64,000 bases of DNA, taken from assembly GCA_963971305.1 (NCBI GenBank), contig OZ020306.1:2472842-2536841 (forward strand), written 5' to 3'. Source of the DNA: Arcuatula senhousia (Eukaryota; Mollusca; Bivalvia; Mytilida; Mytilidae). Within the stretch, counting starts at the first letter, position 1; the number at the start of each line of letters is the position of its first letter. The notes below the pieces were generated by a model, which saw only the letters and a program-made list of their open reading frames with translations, searched no databases and was not told the origin of the DNA. This document shows positions 1-60,331 of this stretch, piece by piece. Position numbers and translations under genes: made by a program.

Positions 1-2766
1 TGGCAAACAACAAAGTGTGATCTCCATGTGGTATGATGGACAATGCTATAAATTACCTGATTCATGCCAGCATTGGCAAACAACAAAGTGGGATCTCCAG
101 ATGGTATGATGGACAATGCTGTAAATTACCTGATTCATGCCAGCATTGGCAAACAACAAAGTGGGATCTTCATGTGGTATGATGGACAATGATATAAATT
201 ACCTGATTCATGCCAGCATTGACAAACTACAAAGTGTGATCTCCATGTGGTATGATGGACAATGCTATAAATTACCTGATTCATGCCAGCATTGGCAAAC
301 AACAAAGTGTGATCTCCAGATGGTATGATGGACAATGCTGTAAATTACCTGATTCATGCCAGCATTGACAAACAACAAAGTGTGGTCTTCATGTGGTATG
401 ATGGACAATGCTATAAATTACCTGATTCATGCCAGCATTGACAAACAACAAAGTGGGATCTCCATGTGGTATGATGGACAATGCTATAAATTACCTGATT
501 CATGCCAGCATTGGCAAACAACAAAGTGTGATCTCCATGTGGTATGATGGACAATGCTATAAATTACCTGATTCATGCCAGCATTGGCAAACAACAAAGT
601 GTGATCTCCATGTGGTATGATGGACAATGCTGTAAATTACCTGATTCATGCCAGCATTGGCAAACACCAAAGTGTGATCTTCATGTGGTATGATGGACAA
701 TGCTATAAATTACCTGATTCATGCCAGCATTGGCAAACAACAAAGTGGGATCTTCATGTGGTATGATGGACAATGCTTTAAATTACCTGATTCATGCCAG
801 CATTGGCAAACAACAAAGTGGGATCTTCATGTGGTATGATGGACAATGCTATAAATTACCTGGTTCATGCCAGCATTGACAAACAACAAAGTGAGATCTT
901 CATGTGGTATGATGGACAATGCTATAAATTACCTGATTCATGCCAGCATTGGCAAACAACAAAGTGGGATCTTCATGTGGTATGATGGACAATGCTATAA
1001 ATTACCTGATTCATGCCAGCATTGGCAAACAACAAAGTGTGATCTTCATGTGGTATGATGGACAATGCTATAAATTACCTGATTCATGCCAGCATTGGCA
1101 AACAACAAAGTGTGGTCTTCATGTGGTATGATGGACAATGCTATAAATTACCTGATTCATGCCAGCATTGACAAACAACAAAGTGTGATCTCCATGTGGT
1201 ATGATGGACAATGCTATAAATTACCTGATTCATGCCAGCATTGACAAACAACAAAGTGAGATCTTCATGTGGTATGATGGACAATGCTATAAATTACCTG
1301 ATTCATGCCAGCATTGGCAAACAACAAAGTGGGGTCTCCATGTGGTATGATGGACAATGCTATAAATTACCTGATTCATGCCAGCATTGGCAAACAACAA
1401 AGTGGGATCTTCATGTGGTATGATGGACAATGCTGTAAATTACCTGATTCATGCCAGCACTGGCAAACAACAAAGTGGGATCTTCATGTGGTATGATGGA
1501 CAATGCTATAAATTACCTGATTCATGCCAGCATTGACAAACAACAAAGTGAGATCTTCATGCGGTATGATGGACAATGCTATAAATTACCTGATTCATGC
1601 CAGCATTGGCAAACAACAAAGTGGGATCTTCATGTGGTATGATGGACAATGCTATAAATTACCTGATTCATGCCAGCATTGGCAAACAACAAAGTGTGAT
1701 CTTCATGTGGTATGATGGACAATGCTATAAATTACCTGATTCATGCCAGCATTGGCAAACACCAAAGTGTGATCTTCATGTGGTATGATGGACAATGCTT
1801 TAAATTACCTGATTCATGCCAGCATTGGCAAACACCAAAGTGTGATCTTCATGTGGTATGATGGACAATGCTTTAAATTACCTGATTCATGCCAGCATTG
1901 GCAAACAACAAAGTGGGATCTTCATGTGGTATGATGGACAATGCTATAAATTACCTGATTCATGCCAGCATTGACAAACAACAAAGTGTGATCTTCATGT
2001 GGTATGATGGACAATGCTATAAATTACCTGATTCATGCCAGCATTGGCAAACAACAAAGTGTGATCTCCATGTGGTATGATGGACAATGCTATAAATTAC
2101 CTGATTCATGCCAGCATTGGCAAACAACAAAGTGTGATCTCCATGTGGTATGATGGACAATGATATAAATTACCTGATTCATGCCAGCATTGGCAAACAA
2201 CAAAGTGGGATCTTCATGTGGTATGATGGACAATGCTATAAATTACCAGATTCATGCCAGCATTGACAAACAACAAAGTGAGATCTTCATGTGGTATGAT
2301 GGACAATGCTATAAATTACCTGATTCATGCCAGCATTGGCAAACAACAAAGTGTGATCTCCATGTGGTATGATGGACAATGCTATAAATTACCTGATTCA
2401 TGCCAGCATTGGCAAACAACAAAGTGTGATCTCCATGTGGTATGATGGACAATGCTATAAATTACCTGATTCATGCCAGCATTGACAAACAACAAAGTGG
2501 GATCTCCATGTGGTATGATGGACAATGCTATAAATTACCTGATTCATGCCAGCATTGACAAACAACAAAGTGGGATCTCCATGTGGTATGATGGACAATG
2601 CTATAAATTACCTGATTCATGCCAGCATTGGCAAACAACAAAGTGTGATCTCCATGTGTTATGATGGACACTGCTAAAAATTACCAGATTCATGCCAGCA
2701 TTGACAAACAACAAAGTGGGATCTCCATGTGGAATTATGGACAATGCTATAACATGTATAAATTAC
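1..2766 (-). repeat. 73-bp minisatellite built from AARS1 exon end plus splice donor
   Basis: A tandem array with a strict 73-bp period. A landmark ATG (plus strand) recurs at 64, 137, 210 and so on to 2692 with no indel, giving 37 copies plus the parental exon copy at 2767-2814; it continues off the left edge. Read on the minus strand, each unit is the last 48 nt of the alanyl-tRNA synthetase exon (ending in the MNQ codons) followed by 25 nt of intron beginning GTAATT. Nearly every copy therefore carries an intact CAG|GTAATT donor; the copies at 2254 and 2692 have CTG|GT. Variation is by point substitution only, which suggests recent expansion or homogenisation. The copy next to the exon is the most diverged. 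Many 63-residue plus-strand open frames here are by-products of the repeat. Confidence 0.95.
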
Positions 2767-2910
2767 CTGATTCATGCCAGCATTGGCAAACAACAAAGTG
2801 GGATCTTCATGTGGAATAACAGACGAGGAATGCACATAGATATGTTCCTTCTCCTTGAAGAAGTCGATGAAGAGTTGTCTCACCTGAGACCCGGTCAAAT
2901 CACACTTCAT
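2767..2910 (-). CDS. AARS1: Alanyl-tRNA synthetase, first coding exon (partial gene)
   Basis: Alanyl-tRNA synthetase charges tRNA-Ala in the cytosol. Only the first coding exon lies in the window; the rest would be left of position 1. The exon encodes 48 residues from an ATG at 2910 and ends in phase 0 at CAG|GTAATT. It contains the RQLFIDFF segment, the HSS segment and the class II motif 1 region [13 protein letters not shown], aligning without gaps to the start of animal cytosolic AARS1, so the start is well supported. The exon's last 48 nt are the seed of the long array that fills the beginning of intron 1. A 203-bp inverted-repeat element lies about 37 nt upstream of the ATG, so the leader or promoter probably overlaps it. 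The mitochondrial paralogue AARS2 is less likely because there is no targeting leader. Confidence 0.9.
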
Positions 2911-2947
2911 TTTCTGTCTATGAATACAAAAATAAAATATTGTCTGA

Positions 2948-3150
2948 GGGGTTCAAATTAGCACTAGTCCAAGGTCTTGGACCTTCTATTTTTGATTCAG
3001 GACCTTTTAAATTTTACTTGCAAAAATCCTTGACCTGCCTCTATCTAGAATGAGTCCTAATGGGGACTTTTTAATGTTATCAGGTGGACCTTTAACCTTT
3101 TAATCCAAAAGGTTCTGGACCTTTAGTTCGAAAATGCTAATTTGAACCCC
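2948..3150. mobile_element. Short inverted-repeat element next to AARS1 start
   Basis: The 16-nt GGGGTTCAAATTAGCA at 2948-2963 is repeated in inverse orientation at 3135-3150. The interior has several GGACCTT motifs in both orientations. No clear target-site duplication is seen. It has the form of a non-autonomous DNA transposon (MITE). Confidence 0.6.
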
Positions 3151-5588: not shown

Positions 5589-7732
5589 GGTGGTGACTAA
5601 AACGAGAAACCCGGGCCACCATCTGCTAACCCAAATATTCCAAAATGCTCTAAAATCTTTATTTCTGAATATTTTTTGATGAAATTTGAAAATAATGTGT
5701 AAAAAGCAGTCTGTGCCAAAATCTTTTTCAGCCACTAGACATTTGGGCTAGCAAATTTCTAATTCCACCAGACCGAATCAGATTCAAGCAGACCGATTTT
5801 TTTTCAGTCTAAAAGTACCATACCAAGCACTGCACCAGTAAACAATACAATGACATGACAAAAGAAATGAGCTTGGTCTAACTACATGTAATATTTTTTT
5901 CCAGATTTTTAATGGGTAAATCTCAGAGTGCCTTCTTTTACTTTGAGAAATATAATAGCAGACAAGTAAAGATATATTCTGTTTTATTTTTCAATACATA
6001 TTGATATTTAAAAATATATTGCATTTTGCATGCAATTGCATAATACATTGGCCATGTCAGTCATTCATCTTTATTTATTTTCTTGGTTGATGAACAATAT
6101 CAAAAAAACACCATTGAGGATGTTCAAAATGGCAGATTTTCGTTCATTTTTTATTTGGCATCTTTCCATTCAACGTACATATCCCCGTATAAATTGTACG
6201 TGTCTCCCAAAGAAAAAAAATCATTTGAAAGTCGAGAATCTCTTTTCCGATGACAAAAATTATCCGTTATTTCAAGAAAATTCTGAAGAGTGAGTAACAA
6301 ATTATTATAATCAAGTATCTTGTTACCCTCGTACACGTTTAAAATCATCCATATAAACGTACCGTGTTTAAAATGCCTTAAAACTGCGATTTATTTATAT
6401 GAATTTCTCCTTTTTTTTGTAAATTATTCAAGAATACCTTGACCTTTATTTACTGACCAATGCGCATATGCAAGAGGAAACCATTCCATTCGGAAGGTTT
6501 TGCGCATGTTGGTAGTGTAGAGTGTTAACTCTCTACATCCGAATGCGGGATTTCCTCCTGACGTCACGGAATCCGTTTTTAGATTATATATTTATTGAAA
6601 ATGGCCGATTTCAAGGAGACGCTGATATAAAAACGGAGAAAAACAGATCTTTATTGGATAATAAATGAAAGATAAATGCAAGAATACTGAATAATATATA
6701 TTTATTACTTTCAATTCACTAGACCGATCGGACCAGTAACTACCCAAATTAACTAGACCGATCAGATTTCTAATAGACACGGGCATCGGGCTAGTCGTTA
6801 ACGTCGCACACTGAAAAAGTATAATATCTTATTTTTTATTTTCGATTTTCCAAATAGAAATTCAAAAATTTTAATTTGAGACAATTTTCGATTTTTAGGT
6901 GACTAAAACATGTAACCCAACGAAAAGTGGAAAATTCATATTTTATCCTATAAAACACCTTTGAATCTAACAAGAACTTATTAACGATGATTTGATATAC
7001 ATCGGTGACGGACAAGTACATGTTTTAACTAAAATTACAGTAAAATATTGCTTTAAAAGCGATTTTTCTATTTTTTTATCGACCCGGGCCGCCCAGTGTT
7101 GAAATGGTATGACACGGTTGATGCTAAAATATGTCCTGCGTAACCGATACATTTTATGTACTAACTATTGTAATGTGAGTATATTTTTGTTATCAGCGAT
7201 TTGTTTTTGAAGGGAACACTTTCAAAATGTTTTCTAGATATTTTAATTCAATGTAATCAATCAAAAGTATTATAAATCAAATTGTTTTATATCCGTACTG
7301 TATTACTTCTTTTAGCTCTACCTGAGCCACTGGACGGCGGCCCGGGTCCGTAAAAATGTATGAAAATAGCTTTAAAACGAAAATTCAAATACATTTTAGA
7401 CCAACTCATGGCCTATTATATCATCTTTATCTATATCTTCAATTATTATCTCCACTTTTTCGTATTACAAGTGTTTTGGATGTGCAAATTGAGTATTTCC
7501 ACTTTTCATCGGGTTACACATTTTAGTCACTAAAAATCGAAAATTGCCTCGAAATTAAAATTTACGAATTTTTATTTGGAAAATCGAAAATAAACAATAA
7601 GATACTATACTTTTACACATTTTTTCCAATTATCATCGAAAAATATTAAGAAATAAACTCATAAGAGCATTTTGAAATATTTGGGTTAGCGTATGTTGGC
7701 CTGGGCCCGGGTTACTTGTTTTAGTCACCACC
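5589..7732. mobile_element. Long foldback transposon with 9-bp target duplication
   Basis: The ends are GGTGGTGACTAAAAC and its inverse, flanked by the direct repeat CAAAAATCA at 5580-5588 and 7733-7741. The arms are about 400 bp each. Left-arm blocks 5589-5706 and 6814-7102 pair with the right arm 7327-7732, for example ACCCGGGCCGCC near 7081 against its inverse near 7338. About 220 nt of loop remain at 7103-7326. The left arm is split by a second insertion (5707-6813). Long TIRs with a 9-bp duplication suggest a Mutator-like foldback element; no transposase frame is present. Confidence 0.75.
5707..6813. mobile_element. Element inserted in the foldback's left arm
   Basis: A 1.1-kb insertion with ends CAGTCTGTG and CGCACACTG (imperfect inverted repeat), flanked by AAAAAG at 5701-5706 and 6814-6819. 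The intact right arm of the host palindrome (about 7598-7610) preserves the uninterrupted site, which defines the insertion independently of the ends. Repeated AGACCGAT motifs occur near both ends. The CAGT-type termini suggest a hAT-like non-autonomous element. No coding frame was recognised. Confidence 0.7.
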
Positions 7733-7741
7733 CAAAAATCA

Positions 7742-9263
7742 TAAAAAAAGCCTAACAAGACATCCTAATTATTTGCCATTTGAACTACAAAGACTATATA
7801 GTTTTCTTACATTATTGCGATATAGTAATGATTTGATCCATAAACACAATCAAAGACTGTATTTATTATGAATATACTTCCAGTTTTAATCTATTAATAG
7901 TATAAAAAGGTTTGATAGTGTTTGGTGAAAATTTTAACATTTTTAGGCAAGCGCCAGCGAAGCCTTATGGAGTCTATAGAGTAGTGACGATTTTCGCGTT
8001 TTTTTTCCGTCTAGACGGAGTGATCTTCCTGCATCCAGTGTGGAAAAAAATGCTTTATTTTCTATATTACTTTTCAATATTTGTTAAGATGATACACACT
8101 TCTATAAATCTCAATTTTTATGGGCATTTTATATGACCGGCACGAGTTTTTTTTTTTCCTTTGCATCTTACATGAGGAACTATTTAGTTAAAGGCGATAG
8201 AATATACATTATGTATTCATATATTACTTGATTTGTTCGTATAAATATTTCTGTTATTTGATTGGGTAATGCAAGGACAACATCTTCTCCATTCATAAAT
8301 TCAGTATACAATACACATCACTGGGACGAATTCATTTTAATCGAAGGGGTGTTTCAATCTAATCCTAATCTGCCCCTTGTCTTTACCTTCAAATACGAGG
8401 CTTTTAGCTGTGTTCCGGGTGCTATTTACACTCAGTATGAGGCCGGCACGTATCTGGAAGAAGAAGAAGAAGAAGAATCGATACCGTTTAACATGATACC
8501 TGTCTTGTGTGTGCAATTGTGTTCATTAACTATAAATTTGAGCGAATCTGCATGACGACCCTTTCTTCGCTCACCAAAATTAATATTTCCCAAACACTTT
8601 AACAGAGAATAAATCTATTAGAGTTCTTATATATTTCGCTTGCCTTTAAACGCTTTAGCGCTTTGATTTTAATTACTTTTCGTGGTGAAATGATGGCTGA
8701 TGCAACGACAAAAAAATTATGAAATACTGACGGAATTCCTAATCTGCCCCTTGTCTTTACCTTCAATTATCACTGAGAGGTGTCAAGCTTATAATTGTCC
8801 TGGCGTAAATAAAATGTTTCGTTTCTTCTCCAACTCCTCACAAACGTGGTTGACGTTTAGACCGGTGCTAAATAATCAAGAAATAATAGTCCGGAAAAAG
8901 TTTTCAATTTCCTTTTCATTTAATTAATTGCACTGCAACTGATTCGATTAACAATTTGAAGAGTTGTTATATTTTGCCAATATAAAATTTCAAAAATATA
9001 AAACTGCTACAGAAGAATAAAAAGTTTTTTTTTTACCCAAAATAATTTTAGCAATCACCGTTTAAAATAGATAGTGGCTCTGTCAACGAATTTTAGACCT
9101 TTAATATACATATACATATTTTTCATTTCCGGTAAAATATAAGTAAGCCGGGGGGCATTTGCGGAATAAAATAGGTATGGTGATTTCGTACACTGTCACT
9201 TAAAACATGTAAATCCAACCGAACTATACATTAAGAAATTTCATTTTACGCACGAAACATAAG
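7742..9263. other. Intergenic; no gene recognised
   Basis: AT-rich DNA. A 28-nt direct repeat starting CCTAATCTGCCCC occurs near 8363 and 8740, suggesting remnants of one dispersed repeat. An open frame of 97 codons at 8262-8555 has a GAA-repeat run and matches nothing I know; I do not call it a gene. Confidence 0.5.
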
Positions 9264-10200
9264 TAATATGATGCAGGTTAACCTGTGACGCTCCCGAAGT
9301 TTAAACGTATCCTTAAATATTTTACAAGCTAAAATAAGTTTTCAAATGTTTATTGGGCAATTAATTGAAACAAATTCTTATTCGAAAATAAAAACAAAGT
9401 AGCTTTTCTTGTGGGTCCTTTGTGCGCTTAATGACGTCAGGAATTTTCAAAGAAAAAAGCGTTTAAAAGACGCAGAAAGTCCGGGAAACAGCGCGTGATT
9501 TACCGGACGTTGAAGGAAAATTGAGTCCATAGTACAACTAGAATATTGACATTTCTACCATTATCGCTCCCTTCGGGAGCGTAATATGATGCAGGTTAAA
9601 CCTGTGACGCTCCCGAAGTTTGAACGTATCCTTAAATATTTTACAAGCTAAAATAAGTTTTCCTTCGGGAGCGTATAAGGAAGGGGTTGGTCACACAGAG
9701 TTGTCACAACCCAGAAGTTCATGCAGAGCTCTCTGTGTGATAAAATAAACGTCTGTTGGGATGTACTTGATAGAAATTGTCTCTTTTGATTCTATCATGA
9801 CATTGTTAAGTTTGTTGTTGGCACCATGTTCATCATACATATGGTGTACATGAGATTATTTCTCATCTGTACGCTTTTTTTAATATGATGCAGGTTAAAC
9901 CTGTGACGCTCCCGAAGTTTGAACGTATCCTTAAATATTTTACAAGCTAAAATAAGTTTTCAAATGTTTATTGGGCAATTAATTGAAACAAATTCTTATT
10001 CGAAAATAAAAACAAAGTAGCTTTTCTTGTGGGTCCTTTGTGCGCTTAATGACGTCAGGAATTTTCAAAGAAAAAAGCGTTAAAAAGACGCAGAAAGTCC
10101 GGGAAACCGCGCGTGATTTACCGGACGTTGAAGGAAAATTGAGTCCATAGTACAACTAGAATATTGACATTTCTACCATTATCGCTCCCTTCGGGAGCGT
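9264..10200. mobile_element. Three copies of a CGCTCCCGAAG inverted-repeat element
   Basis: Two full copies of 293 bp (9289-9581 and 9907-10199) and one internally deleted copy of 66 bp (9608-9673). Each begins CGCTCCCGAAG and ends CTTCGGGAGCG. Each is preceded by the same 25-nt leader starting TAATATGATG, which holds the palindrome CAGGTTAACCTG. The leader repeats at 9264, 9582 and 9881, so the duplicated unit includes it. The junction of copies 1 and 2 (9571-9618) forms a strong palindrome. The two full copies are nearly identical, implying recent duplication. Confidence 0.8.
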
Positions 10201-12444: not shown

Positions 12445-12498
12445 CAAATAATTCGTCAACATTTTAGGATTTCAAATAGTATAACTTCTTAAGACGAA

Positions 12499-14511
12499 AT
12501 GGCTGAGAGAGTGATCCGGAATATAGAGAACGATTATTTAATGTGTAGCGTGTGTCTTGGCAGGTATGAAGATCCTAGACTTTTACCATGTGGACATTCA
12601 TTCTGTGCCAACTGCTTGGCTGAACATATCCAGCAGACCGTGACGGACCGTGACACAATGTACTTTAGTTGTCCGATCGACCGGTCTCAAGTGAAGAGAC
12701 CACGAGCAAACATCAACCCAAGGGAATGGGTTAAACATTTCCCTAAAGATACATTTACGAACAATTTGATACAAGCCGTTCGGATTCACGAGGGAGTGGC
12801 GAGTGAAAACACTTTTGAAGGGGCACCTCAGCCTACACCAAGAAGTCACACAAACATACCGGCAGCACTCGCTGAGGCTCCACAAACTAGATATGATATT
12901 TATTGTGAAAACCATACTGGGAGACCAATTGAGTTCTTTTGCCTGGGATGTAACTTGATAGCGTGTTCTTTGTGCGCCGTTAGAGAACACCGTAACCCGC
13001 ACTGCGAGTGCGTGACTATAGAAGAGGCGATGGAAAGATTTCGACCGCGGATCGATGCATTGCGACGACGATTTCAGAGCCAACTTCAAAGAATACAAGA
13101 CCTTGGATCCAATGGCGGAGAAGATGATGTCGAGTTACAAAACAGCAAAGAATTAGCCTTGCGATTCATCGACGAGGTGGAAACCGAAGTTGGGCAGTTT
13201 TATGAGAGAACTCTCCAAGGAATCGAGGATCTAAAAAGTCAAGTATTTGAATCAGGTAGAGGGCAAATGAGAGACAACCGCCAATTACAATCTGTCATGG
13301 AAAATGTTCAGGCCACGCGTGAGGCTTTTGATGTTATGTGCCACAACCGCACGGACATTGAATTTTTAAGCGATCTTCCCAGAGTCGAAACACAAGCAGA
13401 TGAATATGACCAAGCAATTTTGACTTCAAGTCGGTCTTTTTCGTCCATGCAGGTCGAATTTATGCAAAATCAGAACTTTTTCCAATTTATCCGAAATCCA
13501 CCTCCTATTGGGTCAATTGCGGTTTCGTCGCAGCACCCTCAACATGGTCAAACCTATGTCCCAAACCGAAACTTTCAACAAAACATGAGAAGACAACCTC
13601 CAGTCACACATGCTCCACCTAACAGAACACGACCTATTAGTCGTCAGTTTGGAGGAACCGGTACAATAAGGCCAACTCGTACTCCACGTCCCCAACGTTT
13701 CAATGGAGCGCGAACTCAGAAAACACAAGAGGTCATAAACGTTAAAGATAGAGGAGAAGATACAATAAGTTGGCAGTTAACTGGAGTAGTTTTTGTCGAT
13801 AATTTCGTTGTCGTCATCGACTCTCAAAATCAGATGGTCAGAAAACGCGGCATTGCAGGTTCTGTCGAGGGAAATGATACACTTCCCTTAGAGCAACCCC
13901 TGTGTGTATGTAACATGGGATCAACCTCTAACATTGCTGTTACACAGCCAGATAAGAAACAAATATCAATCATAGGAACAAACGGACAGTTAAACATTGT
14001 AGAAGTTATAAACACGCACAAGCCATATGAAGGCATCTGCCAAATGCCAGACAGTAAGTTCGTGGTGTCCTGTATGGCTGGTCGGATCTCCATCGATATT
14101 CTCAGCCGAAACGGAAGGGTGTTGAAAATCATCGAACGATCTCATTTGTTTCATTGGCCGAGATTCCTGACTATTGCTTCCAATGGAAACATAGTGGTCA
14201 GCGACAGAGACCAAAAACATGTGATCAGTTTAAACCAATCAGGACAGGTGATTTGGACCTATTCGACGTCAGTATCCCCCTGGGGTGTTTCTAGTGATAA
14301 AACTGGAAAGATCTATCTGTGCTTAGATAACAACACTGTTCAAGTTATATCCGAGGACGGGAGACTTGTACAAGACAAGTTTGTTAACATCAAAGAGGGT
14401 GTTAAAACACCGTATGCCATAGCTGCACGGGCTCGCCAAGTAGCAGTAACGGAGTATGGTTCTAGTTTATTTGCAGCAAACAGTCCTAACGTGCATATCT
14501 TTACATTCTGA
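12499..14511 (+). CDS. TRIM-family RING/B-box protein, single exon
   Basis: An uninterrupted 670-residue frame, probably an E3 ubiquitin ligase. The RING finger (about residues 13-64) has C16, C19, C31, H33, C36, C39 and C58, but aspartate D61 at the eighth ligand (C3HC3D). A B-box 2 zinc finger follows (136-171: C136, H139, C148, C151, C156, C159, H164, H168). Next come a predicted coiled coil (about 175-300) and a disordered, Pro/Arg/Gln-rich linker (about 345-410). The C-terminal part (about 415-670) has repeated short beta-strand patterns resembling an NHL-like propeller of the TRIM2/3/71 type, though weakly. Bivalves are known for large TRIM expansions, many intronless. The substrate is unknown. 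The start is the first ATG, just before the RING, as usual in the family. Confidence 0.9.
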   Translation: MAERVIRNIENDYLMCSVCLGRYEDPRLLPCGHSFCANCLAEHIQQTVTDRDTMYFSCPIDRSQVKRPRANINPREWVKHFPKDTFTNNLIQAVRIHEGVASENTFEGAPQPTPRSHTNIPAALAEAPQTRYDIYCENHTGRPIEFFCLGCNLIACSLCAVREHRNPHCECVTIEEAMERFRPRIDALRRRFQSQLQRIQDLGSNGGEDDVELQNSKELALRFIDEVETEVGQFYERTLQGIEDLKSQVFESGRGQMRDNRQLQSVMENVQATREAFDVMCHNRTDIEFLSDLPRVETQADEYDQAILTSSRSFSSMQVEFMQNQNFFQFIRNPPPIGSIAVSSQHPQHGQTYVPNRNFQQNMRRQPPVTHAPPNRTRPISRQFGGTGTIRPTRTPRPQRFNGARTQKTQEVINVKDRGEDTISWQLTGVVFVDNFVVVIDSQNQMVRKRGIAGSVEGNDTLPLEQPLCVCNMGSTSNIAVTQPDKKQISIIGTNGQLNIVEVINTHKPYEGICQMPDSKFVVSCMAGRISIDILSRNGRVLKIIERSHLFHWPRFLTIASNGNIVVSDRDQKHVISLNQSGQVIWTYSTSVSPWGVSSDKTGKIYLCLDNNTVQVISEDGRLVQDKFVNIKEGVKTPYAIAARARQVAVTEYGSSLFAANSPNVHIFTF

Positions 14512-22024: not shown

Positions 22025-31030
<9,006 letters not shown>

Positions 31031-34977: not shown

Positions 34978-37900
34978 CTATAGGATACTGCATGAGGAGG
35001 ATGGATTCGATTGGTTATCATCATCTGAATCCTCATCTTCTGATTGGTCATCATAATTGTCACATTTATCACAAATCTGCTGATTGGTTGAATCAAAGCT
35101 GACATTTGATTGGTTGGTTTGGTGGTTTGTGCCATTATAGGCATGACCAATAGGATTGAGTTCAATAGCCAACTTCTCTGCCATAGTCACGGACAGATGT
35201 TTATGGTGGGAGTGAGCACAGTCCATTAAGTATCCTACGACGGGCATGGGGAGTCGGACAGACCAGGGGTCAGGTTCTGGGTCACTGAAATCCTGTAAAT
35301 GCAGAAATTTAAAGCAGCTGATTGTATAAGGTTGAACTAGAAACTGATTTGGAAACTAGCATCATTCCTTGAGACCATCTTGGCAAATGGTGTCAAGAGA
35401 GAGTCGGAAAATTGGTTCGTGAAATTTTGACTCCTGACGAGGATCGAACTGTGAAAACCTTGGTGTAAGTAGCCTGATGTGTTAACCACTACACCACCAA
35501 TTGTCATGTATACTATTCAAAGCATATTGGTAGCAACAATCCATCCACTCCAGCTTACGTAGTTTACATATTGCAACTGATTCATTATCCCAGAGCTTCT
35601 AGGACTTATCGAATTCCTCGGTAGATCATCATTTCTTACAAAAAAAATGCAAACACAAGGTCATGTAGCTTTCATGGAAGATACATGCCCTCATAGACAA
35701 ATATGATACATTTGTGTATTCTTATCTCTCAGATGGGTCCAGCATTTGGTTTGTCATTGGGTTTTGATTTCACGTCCTTTACCAGATAATTGCTATTTAG
35801 TGTTTTTTTTTTTAATATTTTTATGTTTTCCATTTCTTTGTGCTGTTTTTGCTTTTATATGTTTACTGGTTTTGTCCTTGCCCTTTTGGACTTTCGACAG
35901 CCTATTGTGATTAATACTCCTTAATATATTCTTTTCTTTTAAAATTTCTACAATTTTATGTGTGACTAACCTGTAACACCTGGAATTGTAATAAATCCTC
36001 CATTTCCTTTAGATTTTGTCTGTCTTTAAAGGCCAATGGGGATCTCCCATCCTAAAATTACATACAGTTACATAATTATAGAAAGCTAATGGGGATCTCA
36101 CATCCTAAACATACATGTAACAATCAGAAAATAAATGAAAAGCCAATGGTGATCTCCAATTCTAAAAACAAGTGTTTATCATGAATCGCAAACCTCTTCT
36201 TCCTTTGATCTTAGATTGAAGTTTTATCTCAACACCAAAAAAAAATTCAAAACTCGCAGATTCAAAGCCCCATTATATATTTACTAAAACCATTACAAAA
36301 AGAAATAGAAAGTTACACAGAGGATTGTTATTAAACCAGAACTGTACCTTATCCATGGCAAAATCAGAACATCCATGTTCCATTAACATCTCCACAAAAT
36401 CATTGCCACCCTTCATTCCACAGGCATAGTGTAGAGCTGTTCTGAAGTACTACAAAATAAAAAGAATTATTCTGAACCTATACCAAATCAGAAGGTTCCT
36501 TATTCTACTACAAAATGTATTCATTAATATATCATGTGATCTACTGTAAACGAGAATATTAATGAGTAACTGCAGTTTTATGATGAAATACCTGATCTCT
36601 GATTGAGTCTATTTTCAGGTTACATTGATGAACTAATGCCTCAGAAATCAGTGTACAAGTCTCTATATCTCTTCTTAACACAGACTTATGGAGGGCAGGT
36701 TGACCTTTCCCCTGCAAAATATTAAAACTTTTTCATTAGAATGATAAAGCAAAATGAAAATGTTTTGCACAACAGTACATTTTGAAGACTTTATTTCAGA
36801 TAACCAGATAAGAATTATTAAAATTTTATAGACATTTCTATAAAGATATAATAATAGGTTTTCAGGATCCATCACTACAGTAGATCTCAAATAAACAGGT
36901 AAAAGTTGACAAATAAGTAATGTAGGCAATAAGGGGTACAAGCCAGTGCATAAATAACACTGAAATACAATTAAAATGTTGTTGAAAATATTTGCTTTTT
37001 TTGTACAAAGAAAACAAAAATCTGTAAAGTAAAAAATTGACAGATTTTTTAAACAGGGAGTAGGTGAGTGACAAACATGAAATCAAATCGAATGTTATGG
37101 GACCCCACCCTGATGCTGTATACCAAATATCAAGTGGCTGCTATTAGTAGTTGCTGAGAAAACTGTTACAAATTTTTTCCCCAAAAAAACACTTGACATT
37201 CCCCATTTTATAAACCTGATTTTCCACTTTGTAAAAATCGGCCAAAAATCTAGCTTTGTTATGACTGATTGGTCACATGTTTGCTAGTACAGGGTCTTGA
37301 TTGGTTACAGGAGAAACAAAACAGTTATCAATTTATACATTACCTGTAATCTACTGTTAGCCAGACATGTAGGGAGCTGAGTACTGGGAGAGTTGTAGTA
37401 TAGGAGTCCTTTAGCACGGTCTGTCTCACACATCTCTACAGCATCATGGAAATCTTCTACCTGATTCTGTTATATAATGGAAGCAAAGAAAATTACTGAA
37501 AATAATTCAACAAGAACAGAATTCATGGGTCCCCTGTTGAGCAGCAAAAATTATAAATCTGCCTGCTAAACAGAAAGTAAAATAAAGAAGCAATGTGTCC
37601 ATTTGACATGGATGGTCCTACTGGCCACAAACAGGAAGTAGAAGTCTGACAGGTCTGGAAGTCATTAGAAGGTACAGTTTGTCATATTGAACCATCCTAC
37701 CAAGTTTCCATGGCATAAAGAGTGAGATACTAGAATAGGCTTCGCACAATATGTGACCCCTATCAGATACTGTGTACCGAATATCAAAAACCTATGACTT
37801 ATAGTAGCTGAAAAAACGTACGAAAAAAGTGTGACTGGTGCACAGACACGCACACAGACACACACATACCAGCAGTTCTATGTCCCAAAGGGAACATGAA

Positions 37901-40900
37901 TAGTCCAATGGTACTTATATTTGAATTTGTCCAAAGTATTGGTGACATGAACATAATGTATTAATTTCACATTTACTGAGAATTGTAGGCATAAGAGTGC
38001 TTACAAAAGTGTTATTGATACATGGCAATCATTTTCATGGTCAAAGGGTCACAACTTCCACCAAAATAGTCACACAGTACCCAAATTCAAACGGTTCAAA
38101 GTATTACTGATAATAGACTTCAGTTTCCTGTCCAAAGTGACACAACTTATAAAAACTTGTCATACAGTTAGCAACAATAATGTAGCTCCTATGATATTTT
38201 TAATTGGTGGAGCTAAAATGTGGTCCCATTGCTTGTAATGTAGCATCGCTGAAAGCAAATCACACCGGGCACAATTCAATCCATTACACTTCAAATTTGT
38301 AACTAAAATATTGCTTATACTATTTTAATGACGAATCCAGTTAAATTTTCTGACATTTTGTATTTTTTACATAAATACCAATAATTTTACATTCGGGAAC
38401 TGCTGTTATGATTAACATGTGTACAAAATTTTCACAAACTTCCAATTAATATGGTTTTAGGGAAAGAAATAAGCTTAAAAGTAAACATGTACCTGAGGTA
38501 TGACAGACTGATAACACCTAATTACTTTATGTCTGGCAAATTTTGTTGGCAGGTCATAAAATATGATCCATAAATGTTAGTATTATTTAAGCTATGAGAC
38601 ATACATTTTGAATGGTTTTGTTTCAGCAATCAGGAACTGTTTATCTTCTAGCAGAATGAAGTTCAAACACTTTTTAACATAAGTTCATGTTTCTCATTGA
38701 AGTTTTAGTTGAATTTACCATGTGTTTTGCTATGCTGTTTGCTATCTTATATAGGTGTTGTTTTCATTTTTGACAACTTATTTTGAGTTTGCCTTTTTGA
38801 ACATTTGACATGAGAATGCCCTATAGTAACTTCTTTCCTTCTAAAATAAGCATAATTACCAGATAATCTTGAAGATCTTCTGACAGTTCATTCTTAAGGT
38901 CATCGACCTGAGATTAAGATTATAAAATAAAACCAGATTATGTTTGATATGAAATATACCATAATTAATACAAATGCTTTAAACATTACAAAAAGTATCC
39001 TTAACATCTGAAAAAGACAGAGTTTTTGTTTCTGTAATTTAATGAATCATAAAACTTTTCAAGTGTTATTTTAAGAAGCATCTACAGAATTGAATATACC
39101 GGTAATATGTTATCGATGTACAAGCTTGTTATAAAATTAGATTTAGGTTTATATATATGTATGTTAAAATAAAAGATATGTTGTTAACAGGTGATCTACA
39201 TACTTGAATTAAATCCTTCCATATGGAAGCTGATGCTGATGCTGCATATCTTTTAAAAGAATACGATAAGTATTTGCTGAGAAAAGTGAAACACATTTTT
39301 TCCCACCTGCCACAAAAATTTATAGTCTGGATTCAAATTTGCGAAATCTAGCAAAAAATTTAAATTGAAAGCTTTTAATTCAACTTTGCACATTTTAGGT
39401 ATTAAACTATAAGTTTAACATATTTTATACTATTAAATAAGTGTACCTCATCTGAATCAGTATCAAAGTAACCATGGAGAATCAGAGTCTTCCTGTGGCC
39501 AGGGTAATCTTCTGATGAGCTCCACTGTTTTACATGCTACAACAAACCATTTCAAATATCATGTAATAACAATGAGATCCAGGGTACTAATGAAATGTGT
39601 TTATGTTTACAATTTCTTAAAAACATTCTGAAATGTGAAATTTGCATGCACAAAAAAATCCACTGAACATCACTGTTTTCAGACAGACAGCAATTCTTCT
39701 ATTCCTATTTCAAACATAGATAAGTAGGTGAACAACAGACCCACAATATGGGATTCATCCACCCCTACTACCCCTCCACCCCCCTACCACACAGTATACA
39801 GTTGTCAGAATGACTACCATTTGGATTAAGACTGAAAAACATTGTTGTATATTGTCCTTTAAAACTAAACAATTAAACCACATATTTTTATAAATATCTG
39901 CCTCTGATAAATGTTCTTACTTTATTGATTGTCTGTACAATTTGATGACAGTCTTGAGACATAGCATAATCTCTGGCTGTTAGATTGTCCTATAAATAAA
40001 TAAAGTACTAGTGTACATCATTACAAAACATGGACATAAACATGTATCTGTTGTGATAAAGCATTGTCCCTGGCCGTTAGATTTGACTAACAAACATGAC
40101 AAATCATGTGACATCCCAAAAGCTAGATGTTTTAATTCAGATTGCTTAAAATAGTCTTCTACCTTGCCTTTACAAATGGTTTTAAATCAAGTTGTGTATG
40201 ATTTCATATTTTTAATAATTATACCTCAATCCTCTGTGTGACAATATCAGGGGAAGATTTCTGTAAAATCTCCTCCATCAAATAAGGATCTACACCACAG
40301 TCTACACAGTGAAACAATATGTTCCTACCCTGAAAAAACCAGTCAAAAACATTATACCCTTCGCAACTTTGTTGCGTGGGAAATAAAAAGATATTTAGCA
40401 CAGACAGAAAGATGTTTGAATATGAGGCCAATGTCACTCTCAGATTATATCCAAAAATTAGGAAACAACAAAGTCACATATTTATATGTAAATCTAAAAT
40501 ATCCTGAAGTTTTCTACATGGAACTCTATTCTGATTTTTGTCATTACACAGGCAATATGTCTTAACGTTAAATTAACATTAAGCTTGATTTACACTAATT
40601 TAATGTTAATATCACACCAATATAACTTTAAATTCACATTAAAATTTTTAACGTTAATTTAGTGTTAAACTTTTATTGAACATTACTTTTCTGTTGAGTT
40701 ATGCAGCCTCAAATGTTAAGTACTAATTTCTCTAAGAATCAGGCAGATACCATAAATAGGGTGGCACATCGATAATAAATACACAAAAAAATTTCAACAG
40801 AATTTGGTAAAGCAACCCCAGTGAACTTTGGTTTGAGTCAATTGACTACTAAATTTTTCAGTCTATCTTGGGTTTAGGAGATATTACCAGTCAAAATTTA

Positions 40901-51269: not shown

Positions 51270-51584
51270 TAATAATAATCAATAACAAAGCACAAACTAA
51301 CACACAGTAAAAATCAAATCGATAGAAGTTCAATTCAACAAGAGAGTATCTGAGACAAAAGGACAACAGGTAATTAACGGGACGTAAAGATACTCTCTTG
51401 AGAACACTCGAAGTTACTGACAGCTAGCTAAGAAGCATCCATCGACTGATGTAAAAAAATCAAGTATGTCGATTTTAAATCCGACACAACACGTCAAACA
51501 CTTGATTTGATGATGCATCATCACACAAAACCGACACACTTGACCGCTGTAATGCTCAAAAATGACATAAGTATAAAAAGGCAA

Positions 51585-52895
51585 TTAACATTTTAAAGTA
51601 AGTATCAAATTATCAATATTTTTACCAAAGAAGACTAAATTCAAAGATTTTACTAAAATATCCATTTCATAACCTTTATTTAATAAAGTTTTAAGCCAAT
51701 TTTGCATTCCCAACGGATTGTTTTTGAATTTATTTGCTCTATAAACAACATTACCGTAGAAATCTGGATGGGATATTCCCTTTACAATCAAAAGTCGTCG
51801 TGTACAGTTAAATTTTCCAATAAGGTATAGATATTTATGATAAAACTTAGTAAACGACTTCACTAATTTGTGGTAACGATATCCTTGTTTTAGTAATTTT
51901 TTTGTAATACACTGGTTTTTATCATTAAAATCAGACACACCACTGCAGATCCGAGCATATCTTACCAACTGTGAAATATATACTCCGTAAGACGGAGCAA
52001 GTGGTACATCTCCCTCTAGAAAAGGAAAATTCACAATGGGAAATGAAAAGTCATCCCGTTTATCATATATTTTAGTGTGTAATTTTCCATTGATTATACT
52101 TAAATCTAGATCTAAAAATGGGCATCTATCACCAGTAAGGTTAGATTTATTCAAAGTTAGTTCCTTGGGATAAATTTCCGTAATAAAATTAGAAAATGTC
52201 GGATTGTTTAGTGAAAGAATGTCGTCTAAATATCTGTATGTATAATTAAAAGTTTCAATGAGATGTTGTCTGTTGGGGTCTTTTTGAAGTTTTGACATAA
52301 ATTGGGATTCATAACAATACAAAAAAAGGTCAGCAATAAGTGGGGCACAATTAGTTCCCATAGGGATACCAATGACTTGGCGATAAATTGTTCTCCCAAA
52401 ACGAATATAAATGTTGTCCAAAAGATAATTTAGAGCAGTTATCATTTCTGCATCAGTCCAATTGACGTAACCTTTATGAGTCTCCTTGCTAAAAAACGAT
52501 TTATTAAATAATTTAGAAACTTTAGAGCAGATATAGTCACTTTTAGATTTATCGAAACACCATTTAACCAGATATTCAAATTGTTTTTTAATAAGACAGT
52601 GAGGAAGGTTAGTGTACAAAGTAGAAAAATCGTAGCTATCAACTGTATGGTAAGTACCTTCAAAAGCGCGAAGTTTGTCTAAAACATCGAGCGAATTTTT
52701 CACACTCCAAAAATGATTTATGCCACTGTTTTCAAATACCTTTTCGCAGTATCGAATAATAAATTCTTTCATAGTAGTCAAAGCAAGTGATAAGACTTTA
52801 GAAATATTAGTGAGAGAACACTTACTTGAAGCAGATATGAAACAAGATTTATAAGGATTTTTGTGTAGTTTAGGGATCCAGTACATTGTTGACAT
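51585..52895 (-). CDS. Penelope-like reverse transcriptase
   Basis: A 436-residue open frame without stops. RT motifs in order: WIPKLHKNPYK (near residue 6), catalytic motif A DSYDFSTLYTNLP (about 90), motif B IGIPMGTNCAP (about 175), and motif C YRYLDDIL (about 220) with the paired aspartates. The C-terminal region (KFKNNPLGMQNWLKTLL) is shared with the copy at 11698-11967. The N-terminus is short: the ATG lies just before motif 1, and upstream sequence is missing, so the frame is probably 5'-truncated. No GIY-YIG endonuclease is seen downstream. The core resembles the IPMGTNCAPLxADLF reverse transcriptases common in bivalves; assignment to Penelope-like elements rests on these motifs and the pseudo-LTR-like structure. 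Confidence 0.85.
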   Translation of the reverse strand: MSTMYWIPKLHKNPYKSCFISASSKCSLTNISKVLSLALTTMKEFIIRYCEKVFENSGINHFWSVKNSLDVLDKLRAFEGTYHTVDSYDFSTLYTNLPHCLIKKQFEYLVKWCFDKSKSDYICSKVSKLFNKSFFSKETHKGYVNWTDAEMITALNYLLDNIYIRFGRTIYRQVIGIPMGTNCAPLIADLFLYCYESQFMSKLQKDPNRQHLIETFNYTYRYLDDILSLNNPTFSNFITEIYPKELTLNKSNLTGDRCPFLDLDLSIINGKLHTKIYDKRDDFSFPIVNFPFLEGDVPLAPSYGVYISQLVRYARICSGVSDFNDKNQCITKKLLKQGYRYHKLVKSFTKFYHKYLYLIGKFNCTRRLLIVKGISHPDFYGNVVYRANKFKNNPLGMQNWLKTLLNKGYEMDILVKSLNLVFFGKNIDNLILTLKC

Positions 52896-52995
52896 GAAAA
52901 AGAAAGTAAATATATGTCAACATTCTCCCTTGTGTTTTTTTGTTCCGTTCATTGACTCTAAACAAAATATTGATAGAGGGGAGCAAGTCCCTGTG

Positions 52996-55162: not shown

Positions 55163-57593
55163 TTAGCTCACCTGGCCAAAGGCCATGTGAGCTATTGCCA
55201 TCACTTGGCGTCCGTCGTCGTCGTCGTCGTCGTCGTCCGTCGTCGTCGTCCGTCGTCGTTAACTTTTCTTCAAACTTCTTCTCCTCTGAAACGGCTGCAC
55301 AGATTCAAACCAAATTTGGTCTGGTGGTACTTTAGGGTATTCCCCACAGAACTGATGTGGGGATTTTTGATTCGTCGAAAAACATGGCCGCCGTTGCTAA
55401 AAATAGACCAGGGGGGTCAGACTACTGTTTTTGGCTTGTAAATCAAAAAGTATAAGAGATAGATGAAATCTGATGCCACGCTACTGCTTCAGCATCAAAA
55501 GCTCTACAAAAGTCACCGTTGAGTCGAAGTTGTCAGATGATGCCTTATGGGAGTTATGGCCCCTTAAAGGTGAAAAATAGCATTTTTTCATGTTTTTGGC
55601 CTATGGAATGAAAATTATTGCAGATAGAGAGAAGCTGTTGCTTGCTTAAATGTTCAGCTCATTAAGCTCTACAAAAGTCTCCATAAGGTCAAAGTTGTCA
55701 GATGACCCCTTATAGGGGTTACGGCCCCTTAAAGGCAAAAAATAGAGTTTTTGGCCTATAGAATGAAAACTATTGCAGATAGAGAAAAGCTGTTGCTTGC
55801 TTAAATGTTCAGCTCATTTAGCTCTACACAAGCCTTCATAGGGTCGAAGTTGTCAGATGACCCCTTATAGGGGTTACGGCCCCTTAAAGGCAAAAAATAG
55901 TGTTTTTGGCCTATAGAATGAAAACTATTGCAGATAGAGAGAAGCTGTTGCTTGCTTAAATGTTCAGCTCATTAAGCTCTACAAAAGTTTCCAAAGGTCA
56001 AAGTTGTCAGATGACCCCTTTTAGGGGTTATGGCCCCTTAAAGGCAAAAAATAGAGTTTTTGGCCTATAGAATGAAAACTATTGCAGATAGAGAAAAGCT
56101 GTTGCTTGCTTAAATGTTCAGCTCGTTTAGCTCTACACAAGCCTCCATAGGGTCGAAGTTGTCAGATGACCCCTTATAGGGGTTACGGCCCCTTAAAGGC
56201 AAAAAATAGTGTTTTTGGCCTATAGAATGAAAACTATTGCAGATAGAGAAAAGCTGTTTCTTGCTTAAATGTTCAGCTCATTTAGCTCTACAAAAGTCTC
56301 CATAGGGTCAAAGTTGTCAGATGACCCCTTTTAGGGGTTATGGCCCCTTAAAGGCAAAAAATAGAGTTTTTGGCCTATAGAATGAAAACTATTGCAGATA
56401 GAGAAAAGCTGTTGCTTGCTTAAATGTTCAGTTCGTTTAGCTCTACACAAGCCTCCATAGGGTCGAAGTTGTCAGATGACCCCTTATAGGGGTTACGGCC
56501 CCTTAAAGGCAAAAAATAGTGTTTTTGGCCTATAGAATGAAAACTATTGCAGATAGAGAGAAGCTGTTGCTTGCTTAAATGTTCAGCTCATTAAGCTCTA
56601 CAAAAGTCTCCAAAGGTCAAAGTTGTCAGATGACCCCTTTTAGGGGTTATGGCCCCTTAAAGGCAAAAAATAGAGTTTTTTGCCTATAGAATGAAAACTA
56701 TTCCAGATAGAGAAAAGCTGTTGCTTGCTTAAATGTTCAGCTCGTTTAGCTCTACACAAGCCTCCATAGGGTCGAAGTTGTCAGATGACCCCTTATAGGG
56801 GTTACGGCCCCTTAAAGGCAAAAAATAGTGTTTTTGGCCTATAGAATGAAAACTATTGCAGATAGAGAAAAGCTGTTTCTTGCTTAAATGTTCAGCTCAT
56901 TTAGCTCTACAAAAGTCTCCATAGGGTCAAAGTTGTCAGATGACCCCTTTTAGGGGTTATGGTCCCTTAAAGGCAAAAAATAGAGTTTTTGGCCTATAGA
57001 ATGAAAACTATTGCAGATAGAGAAAAGCTGTTGCTTGCTTAAATGTTCAGCTCGTTTAGCTTTACACAAGCCTCCATAGGGTCGAAGTTGTCAGATGACC
57101 CCTTATAGGGGTTACGGCCCCTTAAAGGCAAAAAATAGTGTTTTTGGCCTATAGAATGAAAACTATTGCAGATAGAGAAAAGCTGTTTCTTGCTTAAATG
57201 TTCAGCTCATTTAGCTCTACAAAAGTCTCCATAGGGTCAAAGTTGTCAGATGACCCCTTATAGGGGTTATGGCCCCTAATAGGCAAAAAATAGAGTTTTT
57301 GGCCTATAGAATGAATACTATTGCAGATAGAGAAAAGCTGTTGCTTGCTTAAATGTTCAGCTCATTTAGCTCTACAAAAGTCTCCATAGGGTCGAAGTTG
57401 TCAGATGACCCCTTTAAGGGGTTGTGGCCCTTTAAAGGTGAAAAATAGTGTTTTTTGCATTGGAATGAAAACTATTGCAGATAGAGAAAAGCTTTTTATT
57501 GCTTAAACATTCAGCTCATTTAGCTATACAAAAGTCTTCAAAGGGTTGACATTAAACCAGGTGAGCGATTCAGGCTCCTGGGAGCCTCTTGTT
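55163..57593 (+). mobile_element. AGCTCACC-bounded element carrying a 155-bp satellite
   Basis: Starts AGCTCACCTGGCC with a hairpin (AGCTCACCTGGCC/GGCCATGTGAGCT), then a (GTC)n run. It ends CAGGTGAGCGATTCAGGCTC with an AGGCTCCTGGGAGCCT hairpin and CTTGTT. Between about 55550 and 57560 lie about 13 units of 154-155 bp (phase marks 55731, 55886, 56040, 56195, 56350, 56505, 56659, 56814, 56969, 57124, 57279, 57434). Two unit types alternate, and a block of about 619 bp (four units) repeats. The layout recalls bivalve pearl/Helitron-related elements with internal tandem cores; this is by analogy. Confidence 0.8.
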
Positions 57594-57712
57594 TTTTTTT
57601 ATTTTCAGGAATATCAGTAAACATATAAAGATTTGACAAATCTTGCTATGGAATTAGGTAACATCTACCTTTTCTGTGTAAAGCCACAATATGTAGCTAT
57701 TTTGTCTTGACC

Positions 57713-58242
57713 TGTTTTTTTCTGTCATTTCAGATGTGACTGTCTATGCAATATGAAGTTGAACAAAATGGCAGCTTGACCCCTTTTTTTTCTGTCATTT
57801 CAGATTTTATGGTTTAGCTATGCAATGTAAAAATGAAAAGATTGCAGCTTGACCTCTTTTTCCCCCTGTCATTTCAGATGTGACAGTTAGCTATGCAATG
57901 TGAAGTTGAAAAGATTGCAGTTTGACCTCTTTTTTTCCTGTCATTTCAGATGTGACAGTTAGCTATGCGATATGAAATTAAAAAAAGATGGCAGCTTGAC
58001 CTGTTTTTTTTCCCTGTCATTTCAGATGTGATGATTTAGCTATGCAATGTGAAGTTGAAAAGATTGCAGCTTGACCTCTTTTTTTTCCCTGTCCTTTCAG
58101 ATGTGATGATTTAGCCATGCAATGTGAAGTTTGAAAAGATGTCAGCTTGACCTGTTTTTATGTCTTTTCAGATGTAATGATTTAGCCATGCAATATGAAG
58201 GTGATCAGGTCATTGTTTGACCTATATATTCTGTCTTTTCAG
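57713..58242 (+). repeat. Acceptor-side minisatellite of DIPK1 first coding exon
   Basis: Eight copies of a 65-76 bp unit starting GACCT at about 57713, 57778, 57851, 57924, 57998, 58073, 58149 and 58219. Each has a T-rich tract, a (T)TTCAG acceptor and the start of the exon (ATGTGATGATTTAGC, then CATGCAATATGAAG). The last copy runs into the coding exon. Units differ in pyrimidine-tract length and carry indels and substitutions, so the array is older than the AARS1 and PSMB5 ones. Confidence 0.92.
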
Positions 58243-58265
58243 ATGTGATGATTTAGCCATGCAAT

Positions 58266-60331
58266 ATGAAGGTGATGAGATGGCGATGTAGTCGGGTGAT
58301 AAAGGCGTTACTGTTAGCTATTGTTATCTTCGTGGTGGTGTATGTTGTTAGCCTTGTACTCATTACAGTGGACGAGAGCAGATGTTCTAACGATGAATCA
58401 AGAAAAATAATAAGAGATTTGGTTTGTATAGATATCAATATGCAATTACAATAGAGATATTAATAAGTTTAGTTATTAGTTTGAAAATATAGTAACACAG
58501 TGAAGTTGTGCTTTATGCTATTGTTTTCACCAATATAATCTTGCCTTGGTTACAAAAAGATGAAAATCACTTCAAAACGGTATTACAAAAAGGTGAAAAT
58601 TGCTATGTAAGATATTCATTGATCGTTGCAGAAATTAGTCATAAGGTTTGTTTTTAAAAGCTAATATTACTGAGTTTATGTACTTTGACATTTGGTGTCT
58701 ATAATTTTTATACTTCTTTGGTGAACAGAATTCACAAAGAAAGCATAATACCATTTTATGATAAACTTCAAGTTTTTAGCACCTCTTGTTACAGATTTCT
58801 GTTAATGTTTATGTATATTTTAAATACTCTTTATTTGAATATTTCTGTTTTCAGTGCAACAAATACAGAAGTCACAAAGTTGAGGGAACATTTTGTCACG
58901 ATATCTGTAACACTAAAGCTTTAACATTCCAAAAATGTGTCAATTACAAGCGAGGAAAGAAAGTCTTCATCTCTGAATGTAATGGTGTTTGTCAAGAGGG
59001 CAAAAAGGTCAAGGCCGTTATCAAAACCAGGAATATGGAAGGACACCATTTTGAACCCCTCCACTTACAGCCAGAGACTGGGTTACCCTTGTCAAAAGAC
59101 ACTGTTCTGAAAGGAGCAATGGCCTTGGGGAACCAGATGAAACCATTCATTGGAGAGACAGATTTCACAGAAATAACATCAATGGACAAGATATTTAGTA
59201 AGTTATGGGGTATCAGTCTGTCTGACTTTGTGAAGAACAATAAGTACCCTGGGGCTGACAATGTAGCCTTAGAGAGTCTGTGGTCGTTAATAGCTCAGGA
59301 CGAATATCTCTTAATGGCAGCTCATCAGGAATCACATTTCATTCCTCAAATCTACGGAACATGTGGACAGTTTTATGTGACTGAATACGCTCCATCTGGT
59401 AAAAATCTTCCATCATCACCAAGTCTTCTTTTTAACAGACAAGGACCTTGGAGAGAGCGTGTTGACATAGCTCTACAAATGTTAGACATTATACAAGCTC
59501 TAGACTTCGACTTTCATGAGCCGTTGCATTTCTGTGATGTGAAGGAAGAAAACTTTGGGATATCATCAAAAGGTCAGGTGAAGATTTTAGATACTGATGC
59601 TTTATTTTTTGAGACGTCTATGATGAAAGATTTGGGTGAACCTAAGTGTACCCAGCATTCCAACTGTGATTTCTTTGACTGCCGAGGCTGGTGTGACCTT
59701 GAGAAAGGACAGTGTGTACCAAAACGTACTAATAATAATTTACAGGTAATCATAAGTAATGTGGACAAATATAATACTAATACACTTTACAAGTTTTTAT
59801 ATTCTTAAATATGTGTCCTACAATATATAAAAAACTATTAATTCATTGAAATTCTTTTAGTATTACATGTTAACATACAAATAATAATGAGATATGGAAA
59901 AAGTGTAGGCAAAACAATCTTCATATCTCAGCAGTAGTTAAAAAATGCACTACATGTATAATCTTAACATTTAATATTTAGAATATTTGCACTTTTTAAA
60001 CTTTTTTACGGTCAATAGCATCAGTATAAGTTCTACTATCATGATCTGGTTATCATGTTATGCATTAAACCAGACTACATGAAAGCCCTTTAATTTCATA
60101 TTTATTTATTTCCAGAATCTCTGTGAAGATATATTTGTTGACAGAGCATTTAATTTTTACCAAGGACTCCTATGTAACCCGCCAAAAGTCGTGGCATCAG
60201 AACTGAAACAACTTCTAGAGGAATGTGCCTACCCTAACGCAAACAAAGGAGAAATCGTCAGAACTAAAACACCCAAGGCTATCTTCTGGAAACTTGTTAA
60301 TTTATTAAAGAAAAGTAAAAGATATAGCTGA
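58266..60331 (+). CDS. DIPK1: Divergent protein kinase domain 1 (FAM69)-like, three coding exons
   Basis: Exons 58266-58421, 58855-59745 and 60116-60331 give 420 residues in phase 0. A basic start and a hydrophobic segment (about residues 11-34) form a signal anchor, fitting the type II ER/Golgi proteins of this family. A Cys-rich segment follows (RKIIRDLCNKYRSHKVEG.., C66, C70, C80, C94, C98). Kinase-like landmarks are AVIK (K109), HFCDVKEEN (D280, N285) and LDTD (D298). The C317-C339 block CTQHSNCDFFDCRGWCDLEK matches the DIPK1 cysteine pattern. The EF-hand-like loop of vertebrate DIPK1 proteins is not visible. The start ATG is preceded in the exon by short upstream ORFs, one overlapping it. 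Which paralogue (A, B or C) it resembles most cannot be told; the substrate is unknown. Confidence 0.9.
59891..59920 (-). repeat. Degenerate Penelope-family terminus in DIPK1 intron 2
   Basis: GATATGGAAAAAGTGTAGGC resembles the terminus GATGTGGAATAAGTGTACGC found at four other places. It is short and decayed. Confidence 0.45.

Follow-up and report, generated by a model that had tools for sequence, protein, structure and literature searches.

Whether minisatellites come to rest on exon edges by accident, or arise there, is the question posed by a 64,000-nucleotide stretch of the Arcuatula senhousia genome (OZ020306.1, positions 2,472,842-2,536,841, forward strand; hereafter the window), in which edges of four genes (AARS1, PSMB5, DIPK1 and an ankyrin-type gene) are repeated in tandem. 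The assembly measures 1.036 Gb, with a guanine-cytosine (GC) content of about 34%. We analysed the window together with an adjoining stretch of about 30 kb that carries the continuation of AARS1; negative positions lie outside the window, on the AARS1 side. With a probability of roughly 0.6, we read the arrays as "mirage" minisatellites, i.e. short, exon-weighted tandem duplications that span a junction and subsequently expand within the intron through normal minisatellite turnover.

Tandem copies of exon edges in four genes

Arrays were detected with Tandem Repeats Finder (TRF), and gene identity was tested by Pfam searches on joined exons. Pfam supports the families; the exact names AARS1, PSMB5 and DIPK1, taken from a first-pass annotation of the window, are presumably correct, and the ankyrin-type gene is one that we take to be such by eye. 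As that annotation had flagged all four genes beforehand, the rate of duplicated edges reported below is a biased estimate.

AARS1 lies on the minus strand and extends beyond the window to about -28643; its joined exons encode a class II alanyl-type synthetase (tRNA-synt_2c, E 4.4e-67). The first coding exon (MKCDLTGSQ...FANAGMNQ, 2767-2910), placed by open reading frame, exon mapping and Pfam, has its predicted functional donor at 2766, and on the same strand a minisatellite of 73 bp, each unit comprising 47 bp of exon end and 26 bp of intron start, occupies positions 1-2814 and continues to -4042. TRF counts 38.4 copies inside the window and 93.8 in all, 92 of them of exact length and comprising 59 different units. 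The exon-proximal donor joins ...FANAGMNQ to FKPIFLG..., giving an AlaRS sequence without interruption, and such conservation of the protein sequence argues for use of the exon-proximal site. Five further duplicated AARS1 edges were found by TRF and exon mapping in the adjoining stretch, which the first-pass annotation had not seen. All lie outside the window on the minus strand: donors after MSSAPK (35 bp, 2 copies) and TGTEAHK (41 bp, 8 copies), acceptors before LLSQGTGG (119 bp, 2.9 copies) and GDIAWRLYDTYG (151 bp, 2 copies), and a decayed acceptor before ATGAPAYQG, missed by TRF and read by eye as 3-4 copies of about 64 bp.

PSMB5, on the plus strand, matches the Pfam Proteasome subunit family (E 2.1e-43, joined exons), and its exons were placed by mapping. 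Exon 2 (22839-22983) carries a donor array of 40-44 bp units, each an exon end plus gtaag, at 22950-23330; TRF reports 7.8 copies of 40 bp (22950-23263), and about 9 copies can be read from the sequence. Exon 4 (25323-25422) carries a donor array at 25377-26727, in which TRF finds 27.0 copies of a 50 bp unit (46 bp of exon plus gtaa) belonging to 9 unit types. Between them, exon 3 (23887-23998) has a non-standard splice site, the GC donor TGCAG/gcaagt at 23998-24000, as judged from the sequence and exon mapping, and one decayed copy of the interior of this exon is plain by eye inside the following intron (24018-24055). The remaining large array belongs to the plus-strand DIPK1/FAM69 gene (PIP49_C, the PIP49/FAM69 family, E 1e-44 on joined exons) and repeats an acceptor, i.e. 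pyrimidine tract, AG and exon start, at 57706-58284; TRF and exon mapping give 8.0 copies of 71-73 bp, the last of which supplies the genuine exon start, at 58243. The four large arrays (AARS1, the exon 2 and exon 4 donors of PSMB5, and the DIPK1 acceptor) had been noted in the first-pass annotation with 38, 9, 27 and 8 copies, close to the present counts, and TRF confirms them in place; the decayed exon 3 copy had likewise been recognised there.

The same annotation had listed two repeated acceptors in the ankyrin-type gene (minus strand), of which one stands. An untargeted repeat search recovered both. The first, an acceptor with its edge at 36051, is preceded by a pair of decayed copies (36082-36116 and 36139-36173; 36029-36173 overall) lying upstream and has an alignment score of 45, where controls reach at least 40 in 2 of 400 positions. 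The second case is weak: an exon start at 39954-39986 and a single decayed copy at 40051-40083 (39954-40083) score 31, and 15 of 400 controls reach 30. Ten other edges of this gene, placed by eye, have no copy. Across the mapped edges of AARS1, PSMB5 and DIPK1, an edge-spanning copy (score at least 50) occurs at 9 of 49, namely five donors and four acceptors; adding the ten ankyrin-type edges gives 9 of 59, and one more duplicated edge, that at 36051, was found only through its repeat. Acceptors thus make up 5 of the 10 clear local duplicated edges.

The arrays share a common architecture. In donor arrays the genuine splice site belongs to the first copy, with the intron filled by the array; in acceptor arrays it belongs to the last copy. 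Unit lengths range from 27 to 151 bp across the window, the adjoining stretch and the genomic arrays described below, and since they are not restricted to whole codons (4 of 17 are divisible by 3), copies need not be translated. The exon share of the unit, taken by hand from the sequence, averages 0.69 and exceeds one half for 14 of 16 units (P 0.004), and the seams between copies share about 0-3 bases where legible by eye, several arrays being cut by the fetched stretch. Units of eight TRF-detected edge arrays have no match in 20 random loci, and the arrays are accordingly local in origin.

Junction arrays against chance

The first-pass annotation held that independent minisatellites would rarely land on splice sites, and chance landing is indeed rejected by local and genome-wide tests. 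Locally, TRF arrays in annotated gene bodies (51 kb) were compared as events with 20,000 random placements, an array being called local if its unit lacked dispersed-repeat status in a search against the 20 random loci (200 kb). Seven of 11 local arrays straddle an edge, against 0.77 expected, and none of the 20,000 placements reaches seven; counting all 17 gene-body arrays leaves seven at edges against 1.76 expected (P 0.0007). The DIPK1 array is excluded from the seven, its top TRF row ending short of the edge. For the adjoining stretch unseen by the first-pass annotation, 4 of 6 local arrays straddle an edge (P 8e-4). The four gene-body arrays left uncounted (three without DIPK1) are no denser in their 51 kb than local arrays in the random loci; these hold 31 such arrays (period 18-160) over their 200 kb, and some of the 31 are pieces of a single array.

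Comparison with random intronic positions, which the first-pass annotation had named as a possible refutation, gives a different answer according to what is counted. The event-based excess is clear, whereas the position-based control is unimpressive: a copy is present at 9 of 49 edges and, once edge and element arrays are excluded, at 90 of 847 intronic positions (704 of 1500 before exclusion). Much of the intron is covered by long arrays, so that the latter control counts bases rather than events and tests the question poorly.

Genome-wide, we searched for three copies of one word at a spacing of 22-52 or 53-83 bp, with reversed or altered words as controls. The donor word AGGTAAG gives 3725 matches at 22-52 bp against 462 for the reversed word, and 7820 against 904 at 53-83 bp, about 8 times as many, whilst the frequencies of the two words away from arrays match (104 and 112 per Mb); other controls at the shorter spacing give 571 (AGTGAAG), 740 (GAAGTGA) and 543 (GAATAGA) matches. 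Distinct arrays were tallied by hand over the stretch spanned by the first 100 matches listed for each word. Among these listed matches AGGTAAG forms 12 arrays in the first 18.03 Mb of C1 (13 clusters minus a chance triple, L034), AGTGAAG 11 in 228 Mb and AGATAAG 16-18 in 202 Mb (17 used), corresponding to per-word rate ratios for AGGTAAG of 12.7 (95% interval 5.1-31.8) and 12.0 (5.2-26.7), respectively. Counts restricted to this 18 Mb part of C1 are 12, 2 and 1 arrays for the three words; at 53-83 bp, AGGTAAG forms 5 arrays in 3.35 Mb among the matches listed. Extrapolation from this one end of one chromosome suggests some 700 AGGTAAG arrays of 22-52 bp spacing in the genome. Arrays at exon-intron junctions hence exceed chance locally and, for the main donor word, genome-wide, and accidental landing of independent minisatellites is rejected.

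The C1 arrays mostly appear to lie at exon ends. When the flanks of the 13 AGGTAAG clusters were fetched, L043 proved to lie inside its own array and L034 not to be tandem, leaving 11 to be assessed; in 8 of these (L031, L032, L033, L035, L039, L040, L041 and L042) an open frame, judged by eye, runs into the donor of the first copy. At L040 (PHACTR1, E 9.1e-15) and L039 (zyg-11, E 8.5e-7) homology reaches the very residue that precedes the donor.

Origin of the arrays

If these are mirage minisatellites, their history may be set out in three steps. Break repair would first copy a mostly exonic stretch of 27-151 bp, the seam showing little homology. The exon-proximal site would then stay in use, and the extra copies would end up in the intron, unseen by selection, while duplications wholly within coding exons would be lost. 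Finally, as the copy patterns show, the array expands (from 2 to about 94 copies), mixes unit variants and decays. For AGGTAAG the observed outcome is that tandem arrays are strongly over-represented at donors.

A number of observations weigh against this reading. Duplications in intron interiors should survive equally well, and survivorship alone cannot produce the excess at junctions; since it cannot raise junctions above intron interiors, exons, or the junction itself, must be more prone to duplication, and we lean towards exons. At the C1 arrays, 3 of the 11 flanks (L036, L037 and L038) have no exon appearance by eye, and homology is weak or wanting in 6 of the 8 open-frame flanks: two matches are clear and two weak (L041, MTAP, E 0.0047; L033, 7tm_1, E 0.0038, below the Pfam cut-off), Pfam gives no match for L031, L032, L035, L041 and L042, and the PDB none for L032. 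A codon score of at least 5 is reached by 6 of 12 array flanks, 1 of 14 single AGGTAAG sites and 6 of 47 sites of other words, only a moderate gain, and one of the six high-scoring array flanks is L038, which we did not count as an exon. At PSMB5 exon 2 the exon-proximal donor (22983) scores 5.3 bits and the array copies (23028 and later) 10.5 bits, both on approximate weights; splicing at the next copy would, by eye, insert 44 bases ending in a stop.

Several of the word tests point the same way. AGATAAG, in which a one-base change breaks the donor, gives 1617 matches at 22-52 bp, 1340 of them on one strand. The acceptor word TTTTCAG shows no excess (1567 against 1246 matches, for words present at 489 and 365 per Mb), and TTTTCAGG exceeds its control about 1.6-fold when corrected for word frequency (766 against 309 matches; 75 and 48 per Mb), true acceptors being probably a small share of acceptor words, so that these tests would have low power. 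AGGTGAG at 53-83 bp gives 2408 against 827 matches and 14-15 arrays in 125 Mb among the matches listed, which at 188 words per Mb amounts to no per-word excess; this test is diluted because a dispersed element in the window carries the word.

The rival that survives best is a mutational process directed at the splice junctions, such as breakage linked to transcription and splicing through R-loops or junction-located, spliceosome-bound RNA, which would seed the duplications there; we regard this as possible but unlikely. The donor-word excess of about 12-fold per word would be expected of such a process, donors and acceptors are both affected locally, and one of the three gene-body local arrays without an edge inside them is within 200 bp of an edge. 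Against it, the units are exon-weighted rather than junction-centred, and acceptor words show little excess genome-wide. The first-pass annotation had proposed just such seeding at junctions: the excess at junctions is upheld, but the weighting of the units fits duplications that start in exons and survive only where they span the junction.

That the sequence AGGTAAG, independent of splicing, is a hotspot of duplication wherever it occurs is improbable. A single-base change, to AGATAAG, abolishes the per-word excess of distinct arrays, and the three flanks devoid of a visible exon would suit a hotspot; the other 8 of 11, with their open frames ending in a donor (two clear and two weak homologies), would not. 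Nor would the AARS1 array, which has CAGGTAATT, or that of PSMB5 exon 4, which has ATGGTAA, neither being AGGTAAG, or the acceptor units, which consist of pyrimidine tract and AG.

It is very improbable that the repeated splice sites are useful, e.g. as decoys or for U1 binding, and maintained by selection. Splice motifs are indeed less variable than the remaining unit sequence in all five arrays compared (0.013 against 0.036, 0.028 against 0.047, 0 against 0.043, 0 against 0.027 and 0.034 against 0.105), but the motif block is not unusual among unit blocks of its length, ranking 27/73, 17/41, 29/40, 15/50 and 7/72, and copy number spans 2 to 94. Purifying selection on the inner splice sites, considered as a candidate, is accordingly unsupported across these five arrays. 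Least probable of all is that a reader noticed the few exon-borne arrays of a minisatellite-rich genome, for although local arrays are common in the random loci and the crude position control comes close, the event counts in the gene bodies and in the unseen stretch, and the genome-wide word tests, speak against it.

The reading of the arrays as mirage minisatellites may be extended, tentatively and with considerable doubt, to a wider claim: that exon edges are duplicated throughout the genome by a mutational process linked to splice junctions or else to transcribed exons, leaving about one edge in seven visibly repeated (as in the four genes here), with junction-borne arrays as a main source of the genome's minisatellites and a lasting reserve of extra splice sites on which intron change could draw.

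Neighbouring repeats and known systems

Other features of the window include a 155-bp tandem array at 55592-57546 within a dispersed element (AGCTCACCTGGCC...CGTCGTC), the unit of which matches 10 of the 20 random loci; in this genome such monomer families, about 155-175 bp long, are common. A 443-residue open frame at 51585-52916 (minus strand) resembles, by eye, a Penelope-type reverse transcriptase, and an uninterrupted 672-residue frame at 12493-14511 (plus strand) has a RING finger and B-box in its first 204 residues (Pfam) and is TRIM-like. Among the random loci, L014 and L026 contain long satellites with periods of 455 bp (89% matches) and 172 bp (99% matches, locus GC 0.48), respectively. 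Locus L023 contains a long 64-bp array (6076-9995); on the minus strand it resembles, by eye, the end of an exon (VLQEGDLVLPA) with a donor, and the putative exon would lie beyond the fetched stretch.

The edge arrays differ from tandem repeats carried inside dispersed transposable elements, a description that fits most of the 155-175 bp arrays (e.g. that at 55500-57544), in that their units are absent from the 20 random loci. Introner elements are single families that carry splice sites and are dispersed over many introns. The present arrays resemble them as repeated sequence with splice sites, but each TRF-detected edge array is built from its own exon and has no relatives in the random loci.

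Tandem duplication of an exon segment containing AGGT has been modelled as a route to intron gain (the Rogers model, PMC4974935). From the available text of that paper, the likeness lies in a short tandem duplication with splice-site words and the difference in its product: there a new intron is made, whereas the copies in the window lie in an existing intron beside the copied exon, and no new intron is seen among them. Human internal tandem repeats at exon-intron boundaries have been linked to minisatellite expansion and possible novel introns (PMC2812944); unlike the arrays described here, half of them are coding and they are found in segmental duplications, and the accessible part of the report mentions no splice-site excess. 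Among molluscs, abalone TSSK1 has a polymorphic 27-bp intron minisatellite (PMC6905558, as far as its visible text goes). Judged from that published unit, it does not look like a splice junction.

Mirage minisatellites themselves are known from lancelets, where those of Adh3 were reportedly described by Canestro in 2002. The present host genome (1.04 Gb, about 34% GC) differs from that of the lancelet in size and base composition. According to the available portions of two further reports, lancelet mirages also occur in the globins BflGb6 and BflGb9 (PMC3087553) and in PGBD5 and troponin C (PMC3902484), with splicing undisturbed and, in the former report, the origin called unclear. Lancelet mirages are also described as varying in copy number between alleles and in the soma. 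The first-pass annotation had known of no amplification of this kind, a view that these descriptions overturn; a search of the open-access literature found, among the matches listed, no report of mirages outside lancelets. To the extent that those portions describe them, the lancelet arrays and ours agree in consisting of tandem copies of exon-intron boundaries, at donors and acceptors alike, with units of about 10-160 bp (27-151 bp here), and in retaining splice signals in many copies with the real site at the exon. They differ from ours on the same accounts in that the arrays described here reach about 94 copies, affect several genes and occur in an excess measured genome-wide. As a kind, therefore, mirages are already known, and what is new is the host and the genome-wide count: mirages now extend to a second genome, of a very different character, and occur there in sufficient numbers to be counted, so that the start of junction-spanning minisatellites, the disregard of their copies by splicing and their possible role in intron gain become testable with existing assemblies and RNA data.

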